Assembly (NCBI GenBank): GCA_902557935.1
Contig: CACECJ010000002.1
Span: 30,660 to 94,659 of the forward strand
Length of the DNA stretch: 64,000 bases
Direction: 5' to 3'
DNA from: an uncultured Pelagibacteraceae bacterium
GTDB taxonomy: Bacteria > Pseudomonadota > Alphaproteobacteria > Pelagibacterales > Pelagibacteraceae
Below the pieces are notes generated by a model that was given only the letters and a program-made list of their open reading frames with translations, was not told the DNA's origin and made no database searches. The translations under genes were made by a program, and so were the position numbers. Each line of letters opens with the position of its first letter. Within the stretch, counting starts at the first letter, position 1. This document shows positions 52,810-64,000 of the stretch, piece after piece.

Positions 52810-52863
52810 TTGTGATTTTTATTTTGTATTGCATATACCTTGGTGAAAGTATATGTAATTATC

Positions 52864-53640
52864 ATGAAAAAAAAGATTTTAATAATGGGTCTACCTGGTG
52901 CAGGAAAAACTTATTTAGCCGAAAGACTTGCTCCATTAATTAACGCCACCTGGCTTAACGCTGATAAAGTAAGGAAAGAGGTAAATGATTGGGACTTCAG
53001 TCCAGAAGGAAGACAGAGACAAGCTAAAAGAATGAAAGATTTAGCCGAAAAATCAATAGAAGAAGGAAGGCACGTGATAGCTGATTTTGTGTGTCCAACA
53101 GAAAAAACTAGAATAGATTTTAATGCGAATATAATAATCTGGATGGATACAATCGAAAAAGGTCGATTTGAAGATACTAATAAAATTTTCGTCCCTCCTA
53201 AAAAATTTAATTTTAGAATTAAAGAAAAGAATGGAGAAATATGGGCTATGAAAATTGCGGAGGAAATAGAAAAATATAAATGGGATAATAAAAAACCCAC
53301 CGCACAAATGCTAGGCAGATGGCAACCGTGGCATGAGGGCCATCAAAAATTATTTGACGAAATTGTAAAGAAAACAGGTCAAGTAAACATAATGGTGAGA
53401 GATGTACAAGGAGTTGGTGATAACCCGTTTGATTTTTCTACAGTTAAGAAAAATATAGAGAATGCATTATCAAGTTTTGGTGAGAGAGTAAAAATTACAT
53501 TGGTGCCAAACATAACTAACATTTGTTATGGAAGGGGTGTAGGATACAAAATTGAAGAGATAGTTCTAGAGGAAACAATACAAAAAATTTCAGCAACTGA
53601 GATTAGAAAAAAAATGAGGCAAGAAGGAAAATTAAAATAA
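52864..53640 (+). CDS. Two-domain protein: APS-kinase-like P-loop kinase plus HxGH-type nucleotidylyltransferase (NadM-like)
   Basis: GLPGAGKT Walker A, LNADKVRKEVNDWDFSPEGRQRQAKRM, VIADFVCPTEKTR; C-terminal GRWQPWHEGH, DNPFDFSTVKKNI, ISATEIRKKM. ATG at 52864 preferred over 52840. Confidence 0.8.
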   Translation: MKKKILIMGLPGAGKTYLAERLAPLINATWLNADKVRKEVNDWDFSPEGRQRQAKRMKDLAEKSIEEGRHVIADFVCPTEKTRIDFNANIIIWMDTIEKGRFEDTNKIFVPPKKFNFRIKEKNGEIWAMKIAEEIEKYKWDNKKPTAQMLGRWQPWHEGHQKLFDEIVKKTGQVNIMVRDVQGVGDNPFDFSTVKKNIENALSSFGERVKITLVPNITNICYGRGVGYKIEEIVLEETIQKISATEIRKKMRQEGKLK

Positions 53641-55480: not shown

Positions 55481-55555
55481 TGGTGGACCGTGTAGGTAAC
55501 GCTCCTACTGCCTCTCGCATGTCAAGCGAGCACTCTACTTTTGAGCTAACGGTCC
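55481..55555 (-). tRNA. tRNA-Val(GAC)-like gene with degenerate D- and T-loops, CCA encoded
   Basis: Minus strand GGACCGT TA GCTC AAAAGTA GAGT G CTCGC TTGACAT GCGAG AGGCA GTAGG AGCGTTA CCTAC ACGGTCC A CCA. All four stems pair; D-loop lacks GG, T-loop lacks TTC..A. Confidence 0.8.
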
Positions 55556-56545: not shown

Positions 56546-57349
56546 ATGAAAAATGTCAACCCAAAAATTTCGATAATAATGACAATATACAATCATGAAA
56601 AATTTTTGAAAAAGTCCATACAAAGTATTATCAATCAGTCATTTAGAAATTGGGAGTTAGTAGCAGTTGATAATGGTTCAAACGATAATTCAAGAAAGAT
56701 TTTAAATTCTATTAACGATAAAAGAGTTAAAAAATTTTATCTAAAAAAAAACATTGGAAGAACAAATTGTCTAAATTTTAGCTTAGAAAAATGTAAGGGG
56801 AAATTAGTTGCAATAAACGACTCTGATGATTTTTCTGATAAAGATAGATTAAAAAATCAATTTAATTACTTCAAGAAAAATAATAAGTGCCAATTTTTAG
56901 CATCTAATTACACTTTGAATGACAAAAAAAGAAAAATTAAAATTAGAACTGATACTTTTAATTTAATTAAAAATCGAAGAAAAATATTATTTGAAAATTA
57001 TATAGCTCACTCTTCAGTAATGTATACAAAAAAAATAATAAAAAAATTAGGCGGCTACCCAAAAAATTACAAATATTCTCAAGACTACATGTTCTACTTA
57101 AAAATATATTTAATAAATGAAATTCATATAATTAATAAATATTTAGTGGAAATTAATTTTAACCATGAAAATACCGAAACAAATAGGTTAATGCATAAAA
57201 ATTTTACAATTTTTTATGAGAATTTAAAAAGATTAAGATGGATTAAACAAAATTTTTTTTTATCGTCTCTCGAGAAACTGAAGATAAATTATAAAATTTT
57301 CTTAAATTATCTTAAAGTTTTGCAAATTAAAATTGGATTTAATTCTTGA
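56546..57349 (+). CDS. Glycosyltransferase family 2
   Basis: ISIIMTIYNHEKFLKKSIQSIINQSFRNWELVAVDNGSNDNSRKIL, AINDSDDFSDKDRL. Confidence 0.92.
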   Translation: MKNVNPKISIIMTIYNHEKFLKKSIQSIINQSFRNWELVAVDNGSNDNSRKILNSINDKRVKKFYLKKNIGRTNCLNFSLEKCKGKLVAINDSDDFSDKDRLKNQFNYFKKNNKCQFLASNYTLNDKKRKIKIRTDTFNLIKNRRKILFENYIAHSSVMYTKKIIKKLGGYPKNYKYSQDYMFYLKIYLINEIHIINKYLVEINFNHENTETNRLMHKNFTIFYENLKRLRWIKQNFFLSSLEKLKINYKIFLNYLKVLQIKIGFNS

Positions 57350-57752
57350 TATAATGGTTTTTAACAAGATTTTGTTTTTTTAACTCGCTATCTTTATGCG
57401 GTCTATTAATTAAATTTACTAGTAGTGAGATTTTTCCTAAAGATTTAAAACTAAACCAAATATTAGAAGGTATTTTTAATATTTCGTTTCTATTGGAATT
57501 CAAAGTTATCTTTCTCTCTTTTCCTTTTAAATCAACAAAATGAAATAAAACTTTTCCAGAAATACATTTGATAAGACAAACATTTTTTTTATGGAGATTC
57601 CACCCTTTATGAGAGTTTTTATTAATTGAATTAAAGTATACTTCTCCAAATCCAGAAAAAAATGTATTCTTAATTGAAACATACTTTTGAATCTTACCTT
57701 TTGAGTTTTTATATTCTTCAGATTTATATAATTTAATGGATTTTACTGTCAT
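57339..57752 (-). CDS. RmlC/WxcM-like cupin, sugar 3,5-epimerase-like
   Basis: FSGFGEVYFNSINKNSHKGWNLHKKNVCLIKCISGKVLFHFVDLKGKE, ILKIPSNIWFSFKSLGK. Confidence 0.7.
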   Translation of the reverse strand: MTVKSIKLYKSEEYKNSKGKIQKYVSIKNTFFSGFGEVYFNSINKNSHKGWNLHKKNVCLIKCISGKVLFHFVDLKGKERKITLNSNRNEILKIPSNIWFSFKSLGKISLLVNLINRPHKDSELKKQNLVKNHYIKN

Positions 57753-58812
57753 GCATATACTTTTTGATTTGTAATAAACAGGTTTCTAATGATTTTTTTT
57801 TATATTTAAGGATTTGTTTGTACCAACTCACAGTAAACTCAACACTCTTCTTGATATCATAAGTAGGTTGCCAATTTAATATTCTTTGAGCTTTTGAAAT
57901 ATTTAATTGTAAATTTACTTGCTCATATAATTTACTATTTTTAGTTTTCATAGTCCCCGATCCCCAAAATTTAATTATGAGATTCACAATTTTTTTCACA
58001 CTAGTCACTGAATTTGATTTAGTTCCGAAGTTCCATGCGCCCGAGTATTTGTCTGGTTTTTTAAATTGCTTCATTGCAAGTATTAAATACCCCTTTATTG
58101 GCTCTAGTACATGTTGCCATGGACGATTAAAATTTGGATTTCTTATTAATACAGTTTTTTCATTAAAAATTGATTTTATGCTGTCAGGAATTATTCTATT
58201 TTGAGACCAATCGCCTCCTCCAATTACATTGCCTGCTCTACCAGTAGATATACCAATTTTATTTTTTTTCTTTTCGAAAAAACTCTTGTAATAAGCCCTA
58301 GTGATTATTTCCATGCTAGATTTTGATGCACTGTATGGATCAACGCCCCCTAACCTATCTTCTTCTTTAAAACCTTTTGTTGAGTTATTGCTTTCATAAC
58401 ATTTATCTGAAGTCACTATCACTAGTGATCTTACAAAGCTTGTTTTTTTTGTTATTTCTAAAATGTTTAATGTTCCTTTTATATTTATATCAAACGTTTC
58501 ATAAGGTTTTTTATAAGACTCTAATATCAGAGGTTGAGCCGCTAAGTGAAAAATAATTTCAGGTTTATTCTTTTTTATCAAATTATTTAACTTATTATAA
58601 TTTCTGATATCGAATAATTTTAGATTAATTTTTTTTTGTAGTCTCAAATCATAAAACAATTTTTTGTTTTTGTTAGGTTGAAAACCAATTCCATAAACTT
58701 TGCTACCTAACATTGTTAGCCATAGAGCCATCCATGAACCCTTGAATCCGGTAACTCCAGTTATGAGGATTTTTTTATTTTTGTAAAATTTTGATAAAGC
58801 AAAATTCACCAT
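57733..58812 (-). CDS. rfbG: CDP-glucose 4,6-dehydratase
   Basis: ILITGVTGFKGSWMALWLTMLGSKVYGIGFQP, HLAAQPLILESYKKPYETFDINIKGTLNILE, GRAGNVIGGGDWSQNRIIPD. Confidence 0.92.
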   Translation of the reverse strand: MVNFALSKFYKNKKILITGVTGFKGSWMALWLTMLGSKVYGIGFQPNKNKKLFYDLRLQKKINLKLFDIRNYNKLNNLIKKNKPEIIFHLAAQPLILESYKKPYETFDINIKGTLNILEITKKTSFVRSLVIVTSDKCYESNNSTKGFKEEDRLGGVDPYSASKSSMEIITRAYYKSFFEKKKNKIGISTGRAGNVIGGGDWSQNRIIPDSIKSIFNEKTVLIRNPNFNRPWQHVLEPIKGYLILAMKQFKKPDKYSGAWNFGTKSNSVTSVKKIVNLIIKFWGSGTMKTKNSKLYEQVNLQLNISKAQRILNWQPTYDIKKSVEFTVSWYKQILKYKKKSLETCLLQIKKYMHDSKIH

Positions 58813-59501
58813 AAATGTTTGTTAGATTTAAAAAGCATATTTAAATAATTTTTTTCTCTGAGGGTATCCATACATTGCCAAAATCCCAAGTGTTTGAATG
58901 CCATCAGTTGTTTTCTTTTTACTAATTTCTTTATAGGTTTTGTTTCTAACATGACATTAGAATTATCTAAATATTCAAATATTTTTTTTTTAAAAACAAA
59001 GAAACCTCCATTTATCCATCCCTTTTTAGCTTGAGGTTTTTCTGAAAATTGCATCACTTTTGAATTTTGAAGTTCAATTTCTCCAAATCTTACTGGTGGT
59101 CTTACTGCTGTTAAAGTAGCTATCTTATTATTTTTAAAATGGAATTTTAATAATTTTTTAATGCTTTGATTAGAGAGACCATCACCATATGTAAGCATAA
59201 AATCGTTATCTTTATCCAAAAATTTTTTTAACTTAAATAATCTAAGACCTGTTAAACTTTTTTTTCCTGTATTAACAACTTTTACTTTTTTGAAAACTTT
59301 ATGATTTTTAAAATGATTTGCAATTATATGGTGTTTATAACCTGTGGCTAAAATAAAGTCGTCAAACCCATTTTTTTTATATATTTGCATAAGATGTTCA
59401 ATAATAGGTTTTTTACCAATTTTGACCATTGGTTTTGGAATTAATTTAGTTTCCTCTGCTAATCGAGTACCTAACCCGCCACATAGAATTACAATTTTCA
59501 T
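58806..59501 (-). CDS. rfbF: Glucose-1-phosphate cytidylyltransferase
   Basis: VILCGGLGTRLAEETKLIPKPMVKIGKKPIIEHLMQIY, MLTYGDGLSN, AVRPPVRFGEIEL. Confidence 0.92.
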   Translation of the reverse strand: MKIVILCGGLGTRLAEETKLIPKPMVKIGKKPIIEHLMQIYKKNGFDDFILATGYKHHIIANHFKNHKVFKKVKVVNTGKKSLTGLRLFKLKKFLDKDNDFMLTYGDGLSNQSIKKLLKFHFKNNKIATLTAVRPPVRFGEIELQNSKVMQFSEKPQAKKGWINGGFFVFKKKIFEYLDNSNVMLETKPIKKLVKRKQLMAFKHLGFWQCMDTLREKNYLNMLFKSNKHLW

Positions 59502-59537: not shown

Positions 59538-61271
59538 TTAACATTGAAGTAAAATGTTTTTAAGTTCATTGATAGCTTGTTTTTTTGAAGGTAGTTTTGA
59601 ATAAGTTCTTACTATATTTTCGATAGCCTTTTTTCTTTCCTCAAAGTTCCACCAAACATCTACTTTGCTCCAAAATTTTTTTAATTCAGACACTAGGGAG
59701 TCTTGATCTTTGAAAATTAAACCAGACTTAACCATGCCATCTATAACCTCTTTATATGCTGGGGAGACGTGAACATAAAAATTTGACCAATAAGATATTG
59801 ATGGAAAACCATAAGATAAATTCTCCAAGAATCCAGTAGAGTTATAATTAAAAAGACAAAGTCTATAATTTTTCAAAATTTTTTCAATTTTTTTGTCTCC
59901 ATAGTCAAATTTAATAAAAGGAAAATTTTTTTCCAAAATTTTTTTTTCTTTCTCAAAATAATGAGATTTAAAGTTTCTAAATCTGAAAGTTATATCAGTC
60001 GTAACATTTTTACTTATTTTTTTTATTAAATTTACATAAGAGTAAATTAATAGATCGTAATCCTGGCCTGTATTGTAAAATTCACATTCATGCCTTCGCG
60101 CCCTTGAAACAATGAGAATACCGCCATTTTTATCTAAATTTATTTTATCTCTATAAATTAATTTAGGATTAAAAAATTCGATATTCTTTTTATTTTTTTT
60201 ATTTTCCCAAATAAAAAAATTATCAAAAGATTTATAAATTAAGGAATTTTTAAAATCTCTAGAAAAAAAAGTTCCATGTTGACCCACAAGATATTTTGCT
60301 CCATTAACAGTTTGCTCTGCAGTCCATAATTTAAAGAAGTCAAACACATCGTAACCGTATAAAGTAAAAATTTTCTTAACTTTTCTTGGCAAAGAAGAGC
60401 TTTTTACTTTGTCAACATTATCTTTGTAGGATTCAAGATAAATATTTGGAATACATTCTATTAATAATTCAAAAAAACATTTATCTATTTTATCTTTAAT
60501 TTCAAATTTACTAAATTGGGAATACCTTAAATTTTTATTGTATGGCTTAATTTTAAGATGCTTCTCGTATTTTTCTAAATAAAAATAATTAAATTTTTTA
60601 TTTAGTAGGTAATTGAGTTTAATTTCATCGAAAAGTTTTAATCCAGTTTTGGCAATCATAAAATCGGAATTTCCGCTGAAATTCATATTACTTAAAACAA
60701 GGTCTCTTAAATTTTTAAAAAGACTTCCTTTTTTTTCATCAATAAAATTAACAGGTTGACTTTCAATATATATAATTTCTAAATTCTTTATAGGTAGATC
60801 AAGGTTTTTAATCATTTTTGAATAAAAATTTAGATTCCAATTCATGTCACTACAAAAATATTGTATTTCGGATGTAGAATTGAATCTTAGGCTATGATTG
60901 TAATCTTCATTTATTATTACTTTGTCTATTTTATATTTTTTTACTAAACTAATTAAATTTAAATACCTATTAAAAAATAATTCAGTAAATCTTTCAAACC
61001 AGGAACCTAGTAAAATGCTCCAATATTTGACATCCCTATCTAAGTTATGAATTACATTCAAATAATTTACCATCTGAATAAAAGCTTTGCCTTTATATTC
61101 TTCGGAAATTTTTTTTTTTTCTTGTATTAAAGTTTCATTGTCTAAGCAAACTATATTATCTTTTTTAGATAGTGTTTCACTCGAATAATAATTTTTTAAC
61201 AATAGGTAGTTTGTCTTATTGGTTGAGTCTTTCATTCTATCCAAATGTCTAAAAATAAGATTATAATTCAT
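59538..61271 (-). CDS. Putative transferase, LIC12162 family-like
   Basis: 577 aa; NGAKYLVGQHGTFFSRDFKNS, LCLFNYNSTGFLENLSYGFPSISYWSNFYVHVSPAYKEVIDGMVKSGLIF. Confidence 0.65.
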   Translation of the reverse strand: MNYNLIFRHLDRMKDSTNKTNYLLLKNYYSSETLSKKDNIVCLDNETLIQEKKKISEEYKGKAFIQMVNYLNVIHNLDRDVKYWSILLGSWFERFTELFFNRYLNLISLVKKYKIDKVIINEDYNHSLRFNSTSEIQYFCSDMNWNLNFYSKMIKNLDLPIKNLEIIYIESQPVNFIDEKKGSLFKNLRDLVLSNMNFSGNSDFMIAKTGLKLFDEIKLNYLLNKKFNYFYLEKYEKHLKIKPYNKNLRYSQFSKFEIKDKIDKCFFELLIECIPNIYLESYKDNVDKVKSSSLPRKVKKIFTLYGYDVFDFFKLWTAEQTVNGAKYLVGQHGTFFSRDFKNSLIYKSFDNFFIWENKKNKKNIEFFNPKLIYRDKINLDKNGGILIVSRARRHECEFYNTGQDYDLLIYSYVNLIKKISKNVTTDITFRFRNFKSHYFEKEKKILEKNFPFIKFDYGDKKIEKILKNYRLCLFNYNSTGFLENLSYGFPSISYWSNFYVHVSPAYKEVIDGMVKSGLIFKDQDSLVSELKKFWSKVDVWWNFEERKKAIENIVRTYSKLPSKKQAINELKNILLQC

Positions 61272-61272
61272 T

Positions 61273-62220
61273 TCAATTTTTTAAATTAATTATTTCTTTT
61301 TCTAACAAGCATAACTTATCAAAAATACTTTTATTTACTTTTTTCTTTATAATAATTTTAGATTGAGATGAAACTTTTCTTTTCTTTTTTTTTTCTTTTA
61401 AATATATTTTATAAGTATTAGTATTAGTTTTTACTTTTAGAAAATTTTCTATTTTTTTCTTAAATATATTAAAATTTAACAGGTCCTCAAAATTTAATAT
61501 TAAAATTTTTTTTTTTATATTTTGTGGAAGTTTTTTATAGATATCTAATTTTTTCTTTTCTATAAAATAAATAATTTCACAAAGCTTTTCATAATCGTTT
61601 TTTTTTTTTAATTTATCTAAAATTTTATTATCATTAAGAAAATAAGGATAAACTTTACCTTTACTTCTTATACATAAAATTTCTGAATTGGGCTTTTTAT
61701 AGAATGGACCTTGATATTTTTTTTTTTTCCAAGATATTACTAAATCGAAGGGATTTTTAAATATTTCAATTAGTTTAGAATTTTTTTTTGCACTTAATAA
61801 GAGTTGAGCCTCTAAAATCCCATTATGTATCAGGAAAGGTATTGTAAAATTTTCTTTCAAAGATTTTCTGAATGTTGAATGTGCGTTTTTTTGTTTTGCC
61901 TTTACTAAATATCTTTCTGGTTTTCGATACTCTTTTAAACTAGTTATTTCGTTTGTTCTTAAATTTAAATCTCTTCCTATAGCCTGATTGTAATGTAAAG
62001 AGTTTAAAAATTTAGTAATTAAATAATTAGAGACGGTGTTACTAATTTGATTAATATGTTTGAGAGTGAAAATTTGTTCAAATATAGCGGACATCAAAGG
62101 TTTTTCAAACTTTGGTAAGGTACTTAATAATTTTACTAAAATTACTTTTCCAGTTCTTATTTGACCTGAAACAAATACAACCGGATATGATAAATCTACT
62201 TTAAATAAATCAAGTTTCAT
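61273..62220 (-). CDS. Sulfotransferase-like P-loop protein
   Basis: YPVVFVSGQIRTGKVILVKLLSTLPKFEKPLMS N-terminal loop; LIEIFKNPFDLVISWKKK. Confidence 0.58.
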   Translation of the reverse strand: MKLDLFKVDLSYPVVFVSGQIRTGKVILVKLLSTLPKFEKPLMSAIFEQIFTLKHINQISNTVSNYLITKFLNSLHYNQAIGRDLNLRTNEITSLKEYRKPERYLVKAKQKNAHSTFRKSLKENFTIPFLIHNGILEAQLLLSAKKNSKLIEIFKNPFDLVISWKKKKYQGPFYKKPNSEILCIRSKGKVYPYFLNDNKILDKLKKKNDYEKLCEIIYFIEKKKLDIYKKLPQNIKKKILILNFEDLLNFNIFKKKIENFLKVKTNTNTYKIYLKEKKKKRKVSSQSKIIIKKKVNKSIFDKLCLLEKEIINLKN

Positions 62221-62917
62221 TAAAATTTTTCCTTAAATGATTTAAGTCTTTCAATGTATCAATTTCAGTCCAATAATCAAAAATATTTAATATTTTAATT
62301 TTTTCTTTTTTCTTTATTAATTCATTAAAAATATCTACATAATATTTATTGTTATACTCGGGGTTTTTTTTCTCTAACATTTCTACAATCAAGTTAGATT
62401 TTTTTTTTGGAATGAAAGCTATGCCAATAAAATTACCATCAGCTTTTTTTTTCTTAGAGTTGATATAATTTAAATAATTATTTTTACATAAAACTTTCAT
62501 AGTGCCCTTTCTTACTTTTCTTTGGTCCACGAAAACACAAATTTTATCTTTTTTTATTTTATTAAATTTTTTCAAAATATTATCGTCAAAAATTAAGTCA
62601 GAAAAAAGAATTAAAGAATCTTTATTTTTTAAAAAACTTCTAAATTTAAAAAGAGTATAAAAATTATTACAAGATGTGTATCTTTTTACATTGTAGACTT
62701 TAACTCTTTTAATTTTTTTTTTTTTTAAATAATTAACGATTATTTTATGCTTGTAACCTGTTAATATCTTTAATTCTTTTGCCTTTATAATATTAGATTG
62801 TTGAATTAACTTAGATAATATCGTTCCTTTTTTAAACTTTATCAGACACTTAGGATAACTCGATGTTATTTTATTTATTCTTTTTCCTCTGCCAGCAGCT
62901 AAAATTAAAAATTGCAC
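62210..62917 (-). CDS. Sugar-phosphate/phosphonate nucleotidyltransferase (LicC/PntC-like)
   Basis: MQFLILAAGRGKRINKITSSYPKCLIKFKKGTILSKLIQ, YWTEIDTLKDLNHLR; 235 aa. Confidence 0.8.
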   Translation of the reverse strand: MQFLILAAGRGKRINKITSSYPKCLIKFKKGTILSKLIQQSNIIKAKELKILTGYKHKIIVNYLKKKKIKRVKVYNVKRYTSCNNFYTLFKFRSFLKNKDSLILFSDLIFDDNILKKFNKIKKDKICVFVDQRKVRKGTMKVLCKNNYLNYINSKKKKADGNFIGIAFIPKKKSNLIVEMLEKKNPEYNNKYYVDIFNELIKKKEKIKILNIFDYWTEIDTLKDLNHLRKNFNET

Positions 62918-62924
62918 TTGTATA

Positions 62925-64000
62925 TCAGATATTGAATAATTTTTTTTGTTGAAAGGTTGACAGGTGTGGTCTTGGCAGATTTTTTATTGTTCCCGCTTTT
63001 ACTTTTAATTCTATTCCAGTTGGTCCAGAATAATTCTTCTTTAAGAATTTTTTAAATGTATTCACGCTTTTGAATTCAAATGAATTTTTATAATTTATAG
63101 ACTTAAACAATTTTCTATAGGAAATAAATTTATTAGTAACAAAATGATTTCCTGTCGATTCATGAATGTAATTATTAAAGATAATATGGTAAATATTTTT
63201 ATTTAGTTTTTCACTAATTTTAAAAAGATTACCTGTATGCATTTGGATAGCACCATCGCCATCTAAAATGAAAACTCTTTTTTTTTTCTTAAATTTTGAA
63301 ATAGCGTATCCAATCTGATTTGCATGCCCCATTGCTCCAATACAATAAAAAGAGTTTTTATGTCCTAATTTAAATTTTTCATTTAAATAAAATAATTCAC
63401 GACTTATATATCCTGTAGAACCAATAAATATATCATTTTTTCTTTTATTATTTAAAAGAGCCTTTATAAAATTTATTCTTTTTTCTTTAAAAGAATTAAA
63501 ATTTTTTTTTATATTAATCTTTTCAAAAAAAAATTTATCAACAACTATACAAGCTGGTGATGAATTTTTTTTAATAAAATTTAATGCTTCTTTAATTTTT
63601 TTTTTATAGTTAGTAGATTTTAAAATAAAAGTTTTTAATTTAATTGAAGAGAGAACTTTTAAAAGTTTTGGACCAATTACTTTATGCTGAGGCTCATCTT
63701 TAATACCTGGTTTCCCTCTCCATCCGATCAAAATTAACATCGGGATTGAAAATATATTCTTGTCTGCCATTGATGTAATTGGATTCATTGCGTGACCTAA
63801 ACCAGAGTTCTGAAAATATACCAAGGGTATTTTGTTTGTTGCAAGATTGTATCCAATACCAATTGCTACAGCGCTTCCCTCGTTTACTGCAACTTCGTGA
63901 TTAATTTTTGTTTTAGACTGTAAAAGACTTATAAAACTATTTAGGGTGCTATCCGGCACACCGCAATAAAAGTTAATTTTTTTTTTTTTCAAAAAATCCA
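62925..64000 (-). CDS. Phosphonopyruvate decarboxylase, 5' end probably beyond window
   Basis: FYCGVPDSTLNSF, PLVYFQNSGLGHAMNPITSMADKNIFSIPMLILIGWRGKPGIKDEPQHKVIGPKLLKVL, VFILDGDGAIQMHTGNLFKI; frame stays open upstream of the TTG at 63992 (..DFLKKKKINFYCGVPDS). Confidence 0.9.
   Translation of the reverse strand, partial: DFLKKKKINFYCGVPDSTLNSFISLLQSKTKINHEVAVNEGSAVAIGIGYNLATNKIPLVYFQNSGLGHAMNPITSMADKNIFSIPMLILIGWRGKPGIKDEPQHKVIGPKLLKVLSSIKLKTFILKSTNYKKKIKEALNFIKKNSSPACIVVDKFFFEKINIKKNFNSFKEKRINFIKALLNNKRKNDIFIGSTGYISRELFYLNEKFKLGHKNSFYCIGAMGHANQIGYAISKFKKKKRVFILDGDGAIQMHTGNLFKISEKLNKNIYHIIFNNYIHESTGNHFVTNKFISYRKLFKSINYKNSFEFKSVNTFKKFLKKNYSGPTGIELKVKAGTIKNLPRPHLSTFQQKKLFNI

Follow-up and report, generated by a model that had tools for sequence, protein, structure and literature searches.

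Nucleotidyl activation of phosphonates is already known from the Pnt clusters (Rice et al. 2019, PMC6697681), and clusters with the phosphoenolpyruvate (PEP) mutase gene pepM near glycan genes are known from SAR11 bacteria (PMC8931226). SAR11 has been estimated to be a dominant phosphonate producer of the sunlit ocean, and phosphonoglycoproteins have been proposed for clusters from SAR11 and Prochlorococcus SB (PMC8931226); the neighbours of SAR11 pepM clusters include choline kinase and lipopolysaccharide choline phosphotransferase genes (PMC9381506). In Campylobacter, Cj1415-Cj1418 lead to CDP-phosphoramidate 3'-phosphate, the likely donor of a capsule modification (PMC11800397). Methane production in the sea draws on phosphonates. 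The route by which a phosphonate reaches a glycan is the gap addressed here, at the right-hand end of a 64,000-nucleotide stretch of an uncultured Pelagibacteraceae genome (the window). Overall, we consider it likely that a surface-phosphonate (phosphonyl tailoring) operon, including the transfer step proposed below, is cut here by the end of a contig and that the window holds its 3' half. On the minus strand the operon would read adenylylsulfate (APS)-kinase-like gene and PEP mutase::nucleotidyltransferase fusion on contig C8, a short assembly gap, and then, in the window, the genes for phosphonopyruvate decarboxylase (Ppd), a nucleotidyltransferase, a sulfotransferase-fold protein and a LIC12162-like protein.

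The window spans bases 30660-94659 of contig C2 (G000:C2:30660-94659) in a genome of 36 contigs and 926,619 bases that is 83% complete; C2 is 94659 bases long, so that its last base is also base 64000 of the window. For comparison we used 151 genomes of the same genus (169 in the wider search for the sulfotransferase family) and, outside the genus, 72,556 plasmids.

The gene at the very edge (62925-63998, minus strand) encodes a single-chain phosphonopyruvate decarboxylase (Ppd/AepY). Its reading frame is open at the 5' end because the contig stops at window base 64000, and about 10 initial residues lie beyond the contig end. The product reaches 328.9 bits with TIGR03297 (cut-off 312.5), aligning to profile positions 2-356, contains the Pfam domains TPP_enzyme_N and TPP_enzyme_C, and has as its closest PDB sequence 9iz3, a putative phosphonopyruvate decarboxylase. 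The initial annotation had named the enzyme from the motifs GVPDS, QNSGLGHAMNPITS, GWRGKPGIKDEPQH and DGDGA, all of which are found in this gene, and had raised a grouping with sulfopyruvate decarboxylases as the competing outcome. That identity was ruled out, as both models of sulfopyruvate decarboxylase score far below their cut-offs (TIGR03846, 79.9 bits against 221.5; TIGR03845, 71.5 bits against 147.95) and TIGR03297 scores above its own.

Seven bp from the Ppd gene, and overlapping the next gene (61273-62220) by 11 bp, lies a stand-alone nucleotidyltransferase of the LicC/PntC type (62210-62917, minus strand), the predicted maker of cytidine monophosphate (CMP)-phosphonate; that a stand-alone LicC-like enzyme adjoins the decarboxylase had been correctly noticed at the outset. 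It matches PF00483 (the NTP_transferase family) with 34.4 bits (cut-off 21.2), and among its solved relatives LicC (1jyk) is best, with E 7e-6, and PntC (6pd1) weaker, with E 2e-4. Its loop GRGKRINKITSSYPK fits the pattern GxG(T/S)Rx4-8PK at Arg and Lys, both of which are needed in PntC (PMC6697681); a further Lys occupies the T/S position (loop form GxGxRx8PK). The joining of a substrate to CMP is well supported as chemistry, and a phosphonate is the predicted substrate. Alternatively, the enzyme could be a LicC that activates phosphocholine and has no relation to the adjoining phosphonate genes, a reading we hold to be very improbable. It is slightly nearer to LicC in score and shares an NNFY(S/T)L segment with it, and the plasmid-borne relative with the best profile score adjoins a LicD-like gene in Prevotella (the LicD likeness being judged by eye); against this stand the tight packing with the Ppd gene on one side and the overlapping gene on the other, the lack of a LicD in the 83%-complete genome, the LicC-type residues that a 2-aminoethylphosphonate (AEP)-specific PntC also has (PMC6697681), and another relative that lies in a pepM-ppd locus of Rhizobium rhizoryzae. 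Relatives thus occur in pepM loci and LicD-type loci alike.

PEP mutase had been described as missing from the window, which is true, and a search beyond the window found it at the end of C8 (G000:C8:1-1431, or L004:1-1431, minus strand) as a fusion with a nucleotidyltransferase domain. The protein reaches 334 bits against TIGR02320 (cut-off 319.55), carries the PEP mutase motif EDKx5NS as EDKLFPKVNS, and matches a solved phosphoenolpyruvate phosphomutase (5unc) at 2e-88; its nucleotidyltransferase domain is C-terminal and runs off the contig start. Because this minus-strand gene is open at the start of C8, the sequence would run on from C8 into C2 and place pepM upstream of ppd in the same orientation; of the 22 other Ppd loci in the genus, 13 show this order, with pepM directly upstream. 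Upstream of pepM on C8 are the APS-kinase-like gene, whose overlap with it is 35 bp, and a pseudaminic-acid cluster with homologues of PseC, PseB, PseF, PseH, PseI and PseG, those of PseF and PseG scoring under their cut-offs. A single-cell Pelagibacteraceae contig (AG-343-F19; L058) repeats the arrangement PseB-PseC-ApsK-PepM::NTP; its PepM has 62% identity, and this contig too is broken within that gene. The likeness also suggests that the window belongs to SAR11. We regard it as highly likely that C2 and C8 are adjacent in the genome.

PepM scores above its cut-off in 22 of the 151 genomes, with open frames of 429-450 aa in the other 21 and of 477 aa or more only in the window's genome. In L045, the one scanned among those 21, the CTP_transf_like domain is N-terminal, the architecture of Fom1. 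Stand-alone proteins of 123-151 aa that resemble this CTP_transf_like domain lie near ppd in L035, L036, L037, L038, L044, L046 and L052, and are further cytidylyltransferase candidates.

A phosphonate pathway with nucleotidyl activation is very probable. Neither outcome named at the outset as overturning the prediction, a genome without PEP mutase or a decarboxylase of the sulfopyruvate kind, was observed, which sustains the cytidylyl-activated surface phosphonate of the initial annotation; the lipid headgroup in that prediction found no support, the context being one of glycan genes. PEP mutase would convert PEP to phosphonopyruvate and Ppd would convert phosphonopyruvate to phosphonoacetaldehyde, two steps well supported by the family models, after which phosphonoacetaldehyde would be reduced or aminated. 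An AEP transaminase, named at the outset as a gene to look for beyond the window, was found in the window's genome neither with TIGR03301 nor with a divergent class-V aminotransferase from L044 as query (a weak absence at 83% completeness), and the phosphonate therefore need not be AEP; the same genome yielded no iron-containing alcohol dehydrogenase (Fe-ADH). Among congeners, an Fe-ADH lies near Ppd in most, which implies 2-hydroxyethylphosphonate there, and an Aminotran_5 protein follows Ppd in at least one (L044), which implies AEP there.

Two parts of the cluster were not used in the initial annotation: the APS-kinase-like gene and the sulfotransferase-fold gene. The APS-kinase-like gene beside pepM on C8 matches PF01583 with 39.3 bits (cut-off 21.1). 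Full-length, stand-alone genes of this kind occur in 20 of the 151 genomes, a count that leaves out short PF01583 matches (about 83 profile positions) as a different protein, some of which adjoin ATP sulfurylase. Ten of the 20 genomes also have PepM or Ppd, which occur in 25 genomes altogether. Another six carry a glutamine-kinase-like gene (PPDK_N plus a PEP-utilising mobile domain), present in 10 genomes; 16 of the 20 thus have one or the other. Fisher tests of co-occurrence, whose p-values are indicative only since the genomes have common ancestry, gave p = 1.7e-4 for PepM/Ppd, p = 3.9e-4 for glutamine kinase and p = 7e-9 for either; without the two kinases that are adjacent to ATP sulfurylase, the values were p = 2e-7 for either cassette and p = 0.69 for ATP sulfurylase. 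For the most part, stand-alone APS-kinase-like genes that track these cassettes occur without ATP sulfurylase, and neither CysD nor Sat was found in the window's genome.

In a tree of the kinases, a clade with 100/100 support unites those of the phosphonate loci L040, L043, L049 and L051 with that of L133, which lies beside a glutamine kinase, and two others, and it is separate from the sulfurylase-linked kinases. On plasmids, the kinases of L051, L043 and L040 are matched best by Azospirillum kinases, and lower down by deltaproteobacterial ones, within phosphoramidate cassettes; these cassettes hold a PEP-utilising enzyme (glutamine kinase), a gamma-glutamyl hydrolase and a phosphocholine-cytidylyltransferase-like gene, joined in A. 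lipoferum by a sulfotransferase. A sulfurylase-linked SAR11 kinase, compared with the same plasmids, matched ordinary cysC, among 445 records.

Phosphoramidate-type cassettes are also present within the genus, in 10 of the 151 genomes by the count of glutamine kinases (L124:2955-10409, L125, L127, L130, L131, L133 and L172-L175; partial in L164), with glutamine-kinase-like, GATase and cytidylyltransferase genes and often APS-kinase-like and sulfotransferase-like genes. To our knowledge, such cassettes have not been reported from SAR11. The locus at the window end was ruled out as one of them, since no glutamine kinase was found in the window's 83%-complete genome. On two Azospirillum plasmids (L176:7033-9573 and L177:7036-9552), the phosphoramidate cassette adjoins a gene for a protein of ~840 aa whose APS-kinase domain is C-terminal and whose ~650 N-terminal residues match nothing in Pfam.

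The other unused gene (61273-62220, minus strand) encodes a sulfotransferase-fold protein, predicted to be a transferase that acts on a 3'-phosphonucleotide donor. With its AlphaFold2 model (pLDDT 73.8, pTM 0.77) as query, the top 20 Foldseek matches were all sulfotransferases (best E 2.5e-6), at modest TM-scores of 0.31-0.48 on the query, and the profile of its family matches PDB sulfotransferases (5x2b, E 1.3e-5). SULT-family sulfotransferases bind the 3'-phosphate of 3'-phosphoadenosine 5'-phosphosulfate (PAPS) with an R...S pair; KNPFDLVIS in the window's protein is a motif of this 3'-phosphate-binding type in which the R...S spacing is kept, and other family members have RNPxDxxxS. Searched as a single sequence among 1081 open reading frames, it matched three genes besides its own, one in each of the phosphoramidate loci L124, L130 and L131 and each directly 3' of the kinase. 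Iterating the profile brought in genes next to CysD in L121 and, weakly, in L120, and the family is present in 13 of the 169 genomes. The cassette of L164 combines GATase, cytidylyltransferase, sulfotransferase, kinase, a member of this family directly after the kinase, and a LIC12162-like gene. In the phosphonate loci L049 and L051, a different, Sulfotransfer_3-like protein with RDPxxxxxS directly follows the kinase.

These two genes could instead form a sulfation module whose place beside the phosphonate module is coincidental, the kinase making PAPS and the sulfotransferase-fold protein sulfating the glycan. In G041 and G061, ATP sulfurylase does lie next to the kinase within the pepM locus, and a homologue of 61273-62220 adjoins CysD in G072. 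However, ATP sulfurylase of neither type was found in the window's genome, which is 83% complete, the genus-wide association of kinase and sulfurylase is gone once the two adjacent cases are removed, and outside the genus the clade-supported kinases match those of phosphoramidate cassettes better than cysC; we thus find sulfation improbable.

We hypothesize, tentatively and at somewhat less than even odds, that SAR11 uses 3'-phospho-CMP-phosphonate as a double-tagged carrier and that sulfotransferase-fold enzymes serve as phosphonate (and phosphoramidate) transferases, a PAPS-type logic with phosphorus in the place of sulfur. The cytidylyltransferase would join the phosphonate to CMP; the APS-kinase-like enzyme would phosphorylate the 3'-OH of the resulting CMP-phosphonate, by analogy with Campylobacter Cj1415, which acts in this way on the path to CDP-phosphoramidate 3'-phosphate; and the sulfotransferase-fold protein would recognise the 3'-phosphate as a handle and move the phosphonate to a surface glycan containing pseudaminic acid. 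The analysis itself establishes gene identities, linkage, co-occurrence, the kinase clade and the fold; the activities of the kinase and of the sulfotransferase-fold protein, and the acceptor, are what we infer. By this analogy, 3'-phosphorylation and sulfotransferase-type transfer would be a possibility at the window locus that falls just short of probable, and moderately probable in the related loci that have a clade-supported kinase.

Several observations weigh against the overall reading of the locus. The ends of C2 and C8 share no exact sequence overlap, so that their adjacency is inferred, and a bridging contig with a C8-type PepM plus Ppd was found neither among viral contigs nor in the genome collection, which gave only L058, ending in the same gene. 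The C8 kinase is assigned from its P-loop and DGD motifs and its position, and it is very divergent: it forms a long branch in the tree, as does that of L058, neither of which can be placed, it reaches 39.3 bits with PF01583, and it has no relatives among the 72,556 plasmids. In L045, L047 and L055, the kinases linked to pepM cluster with ATP-sulfurylase-linked ones, on which account we dropped the view that all pepM-linked kinases are of one kind, and the best plasmid match of the L045 kinase is ordinary cysC. In L163 and L165, a member of the 61273-62220 family lies beside a LIC12162-like gene and PseC/PseB with no kinase nearby, and in L121 one adjoins CysD. No gene for the step from phosphonoacetaldehyde to the final phosphonate was found in the available sequence; the genomes are about 51-98% complete, which makes absences weak. 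Finally, the fused domain of the C8 PepM, like that of L058, has PPKGK and YPV in place of the R and PK of active enzymes; it may be conserved in a non-catalytic or altered role. As the motif Arg and Lys are missing from it and the stand-alone protein is canonical, 62210-62917 is the stronger of the two candidates for an active cytidylyltransferase.

Next to the sulfotransferase-fold gene, at a distance of 1 bp, lies a gene for a LIC12162-family transferase-like protein (59538-61271, minus strand), which scores 194.9 bits against TIGR04331, below the cut-off of 225, has no Pfam match, and gave a structure model of low confidence (pLDDT 54). LIC12162-like genes stand beside a 61273-62220 family member in three other genomes (L163, L164 and L165), and this one is a candidate glycan or phosphonate transferase. 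It matters for another alternative, conventional phosphonyl tailoring, in which CMP-phosphonate made by PepM, Ppd and PntC would pass straight to the glycan through a GT-B or LicD-like transferase, perhaps the LIC12162-like protein, and the kinase and sulfotransferase-fold proteins would be unrelated members of the same glycan island. Such tailoring is the published logic for loci with pepM and a nucleotidyltransferase (PMC6697681), and it agrees with the close spacing of the LIC12162-like gene, with a Segatella copri pepM-ppd-reductase cluster whose next gene belongs to the CDP-glycerol glycerophosphotransferase family (PF04464, 219 bits), and with the finding that more than half of the 22 Ppd relatives have no APS-kinase-like gene within the part examined. 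Yet it would leave unexplained why the kinase tracks phosphonate and phosphoramidate cassettes and why their kinases form a common clade. Also against it, no LicD was found in the genome and the LIC12162-like protein has no Pfam match; we consider it rather unlikely.

Further features accompany the proposed phosphonate operon. The final 10 kb of the window have a G+C content of 24%, and the window as a whole 29%. The phosphonate genes are followed, with no change of strand (57339-59501), by a CDP-glucose cytidylyltransferase-like gene, a 4,6-dehydratase gene (TIGR02622, 431 bits) and an FdtA-like gene; this CDP-sugar branch belongs to the same glycan island as the phosphonate genes. A tRNA-Val gene (55481-55555) within the island is a possible integration point of the variable region. 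At 52840-53640 (plus strand) is a 266-aa protein with a P-loop/APS-kinase-like N-terminus and a segment resembling nucleotidylyltransferases (GRWQPWHEGH, ISATEIRKKM), and similar frames of 257-283 aa recur across the genus.

In the literature searched, which left most subscription papers outside its scope, we found no paper that pairs pepM with an adenylylsulfate kinase and no description of transfer from a 3'-phospho donor by a sulfotransferase-fold transferase, a logic that would be new if borne out. It gives a possible reason why SAR11 genomes without ATP sulfurylase carry APS-kinase-like genes. With PAPS-dependent carbohydrate and tyrosylprotein sulfotransferases, 61273-62220 shares the fold, a 5' P-loop-like segment and the 3'-phosphate-binding motif, whereas no ATP sulfurylase was found in its genome and its genomic partners are a cytidylyltransferase and phosphonate genes. 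The Pnt clusters (PMC6697681) resemble the locus in their PEP mutase::nucleotidyltransferase fusion, Ppd, LicC-like stand-alone nucleotidyltransferase and surrounding glycan genes; the locus differs in having no AEP transaminase that we could find, a fused domain that lacks the motif Arg and Lys, and additional APS-kinase-like and sulfotransferase-fold genes, the kinase being absent from the main text of that paper. The clusters that Acker et al. (2022, PMC8931226) describe from SAR11 and Prochlorococcus SB likewise have pepM and ppd less than 5 kb from glycan-assembly genes, and in the same bacterial group; in contrast, the nucleotidyltransferase of the C8 PepM is C-terminal and not an N-terminal CTP_transf_like domain (seen in one congener and implied by length in others), and neither the kinase nor the sulfotransferase-fold gene appears in the main text of that study. 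The O-methyl phosphoramidate system of Campylobacter (Cj1415-Cj1418; PMC11800397, PMC3907429) is alike in its cytidylyltransferase of the same broad family and its APS-kinase-like enzyme, a pair that makes a 3'-phosphorylated cytidine donor for phosphorus modification of the capsule. Here the activated group would come from PEP mutase, with its C-P bond, and not from glutamine kinase, and the predicted transferase is sulfotransferase-like. The comparison yields concrete candidates for donor and transferase, and ties phosphonate to phosphoramidate decoration through common genes.

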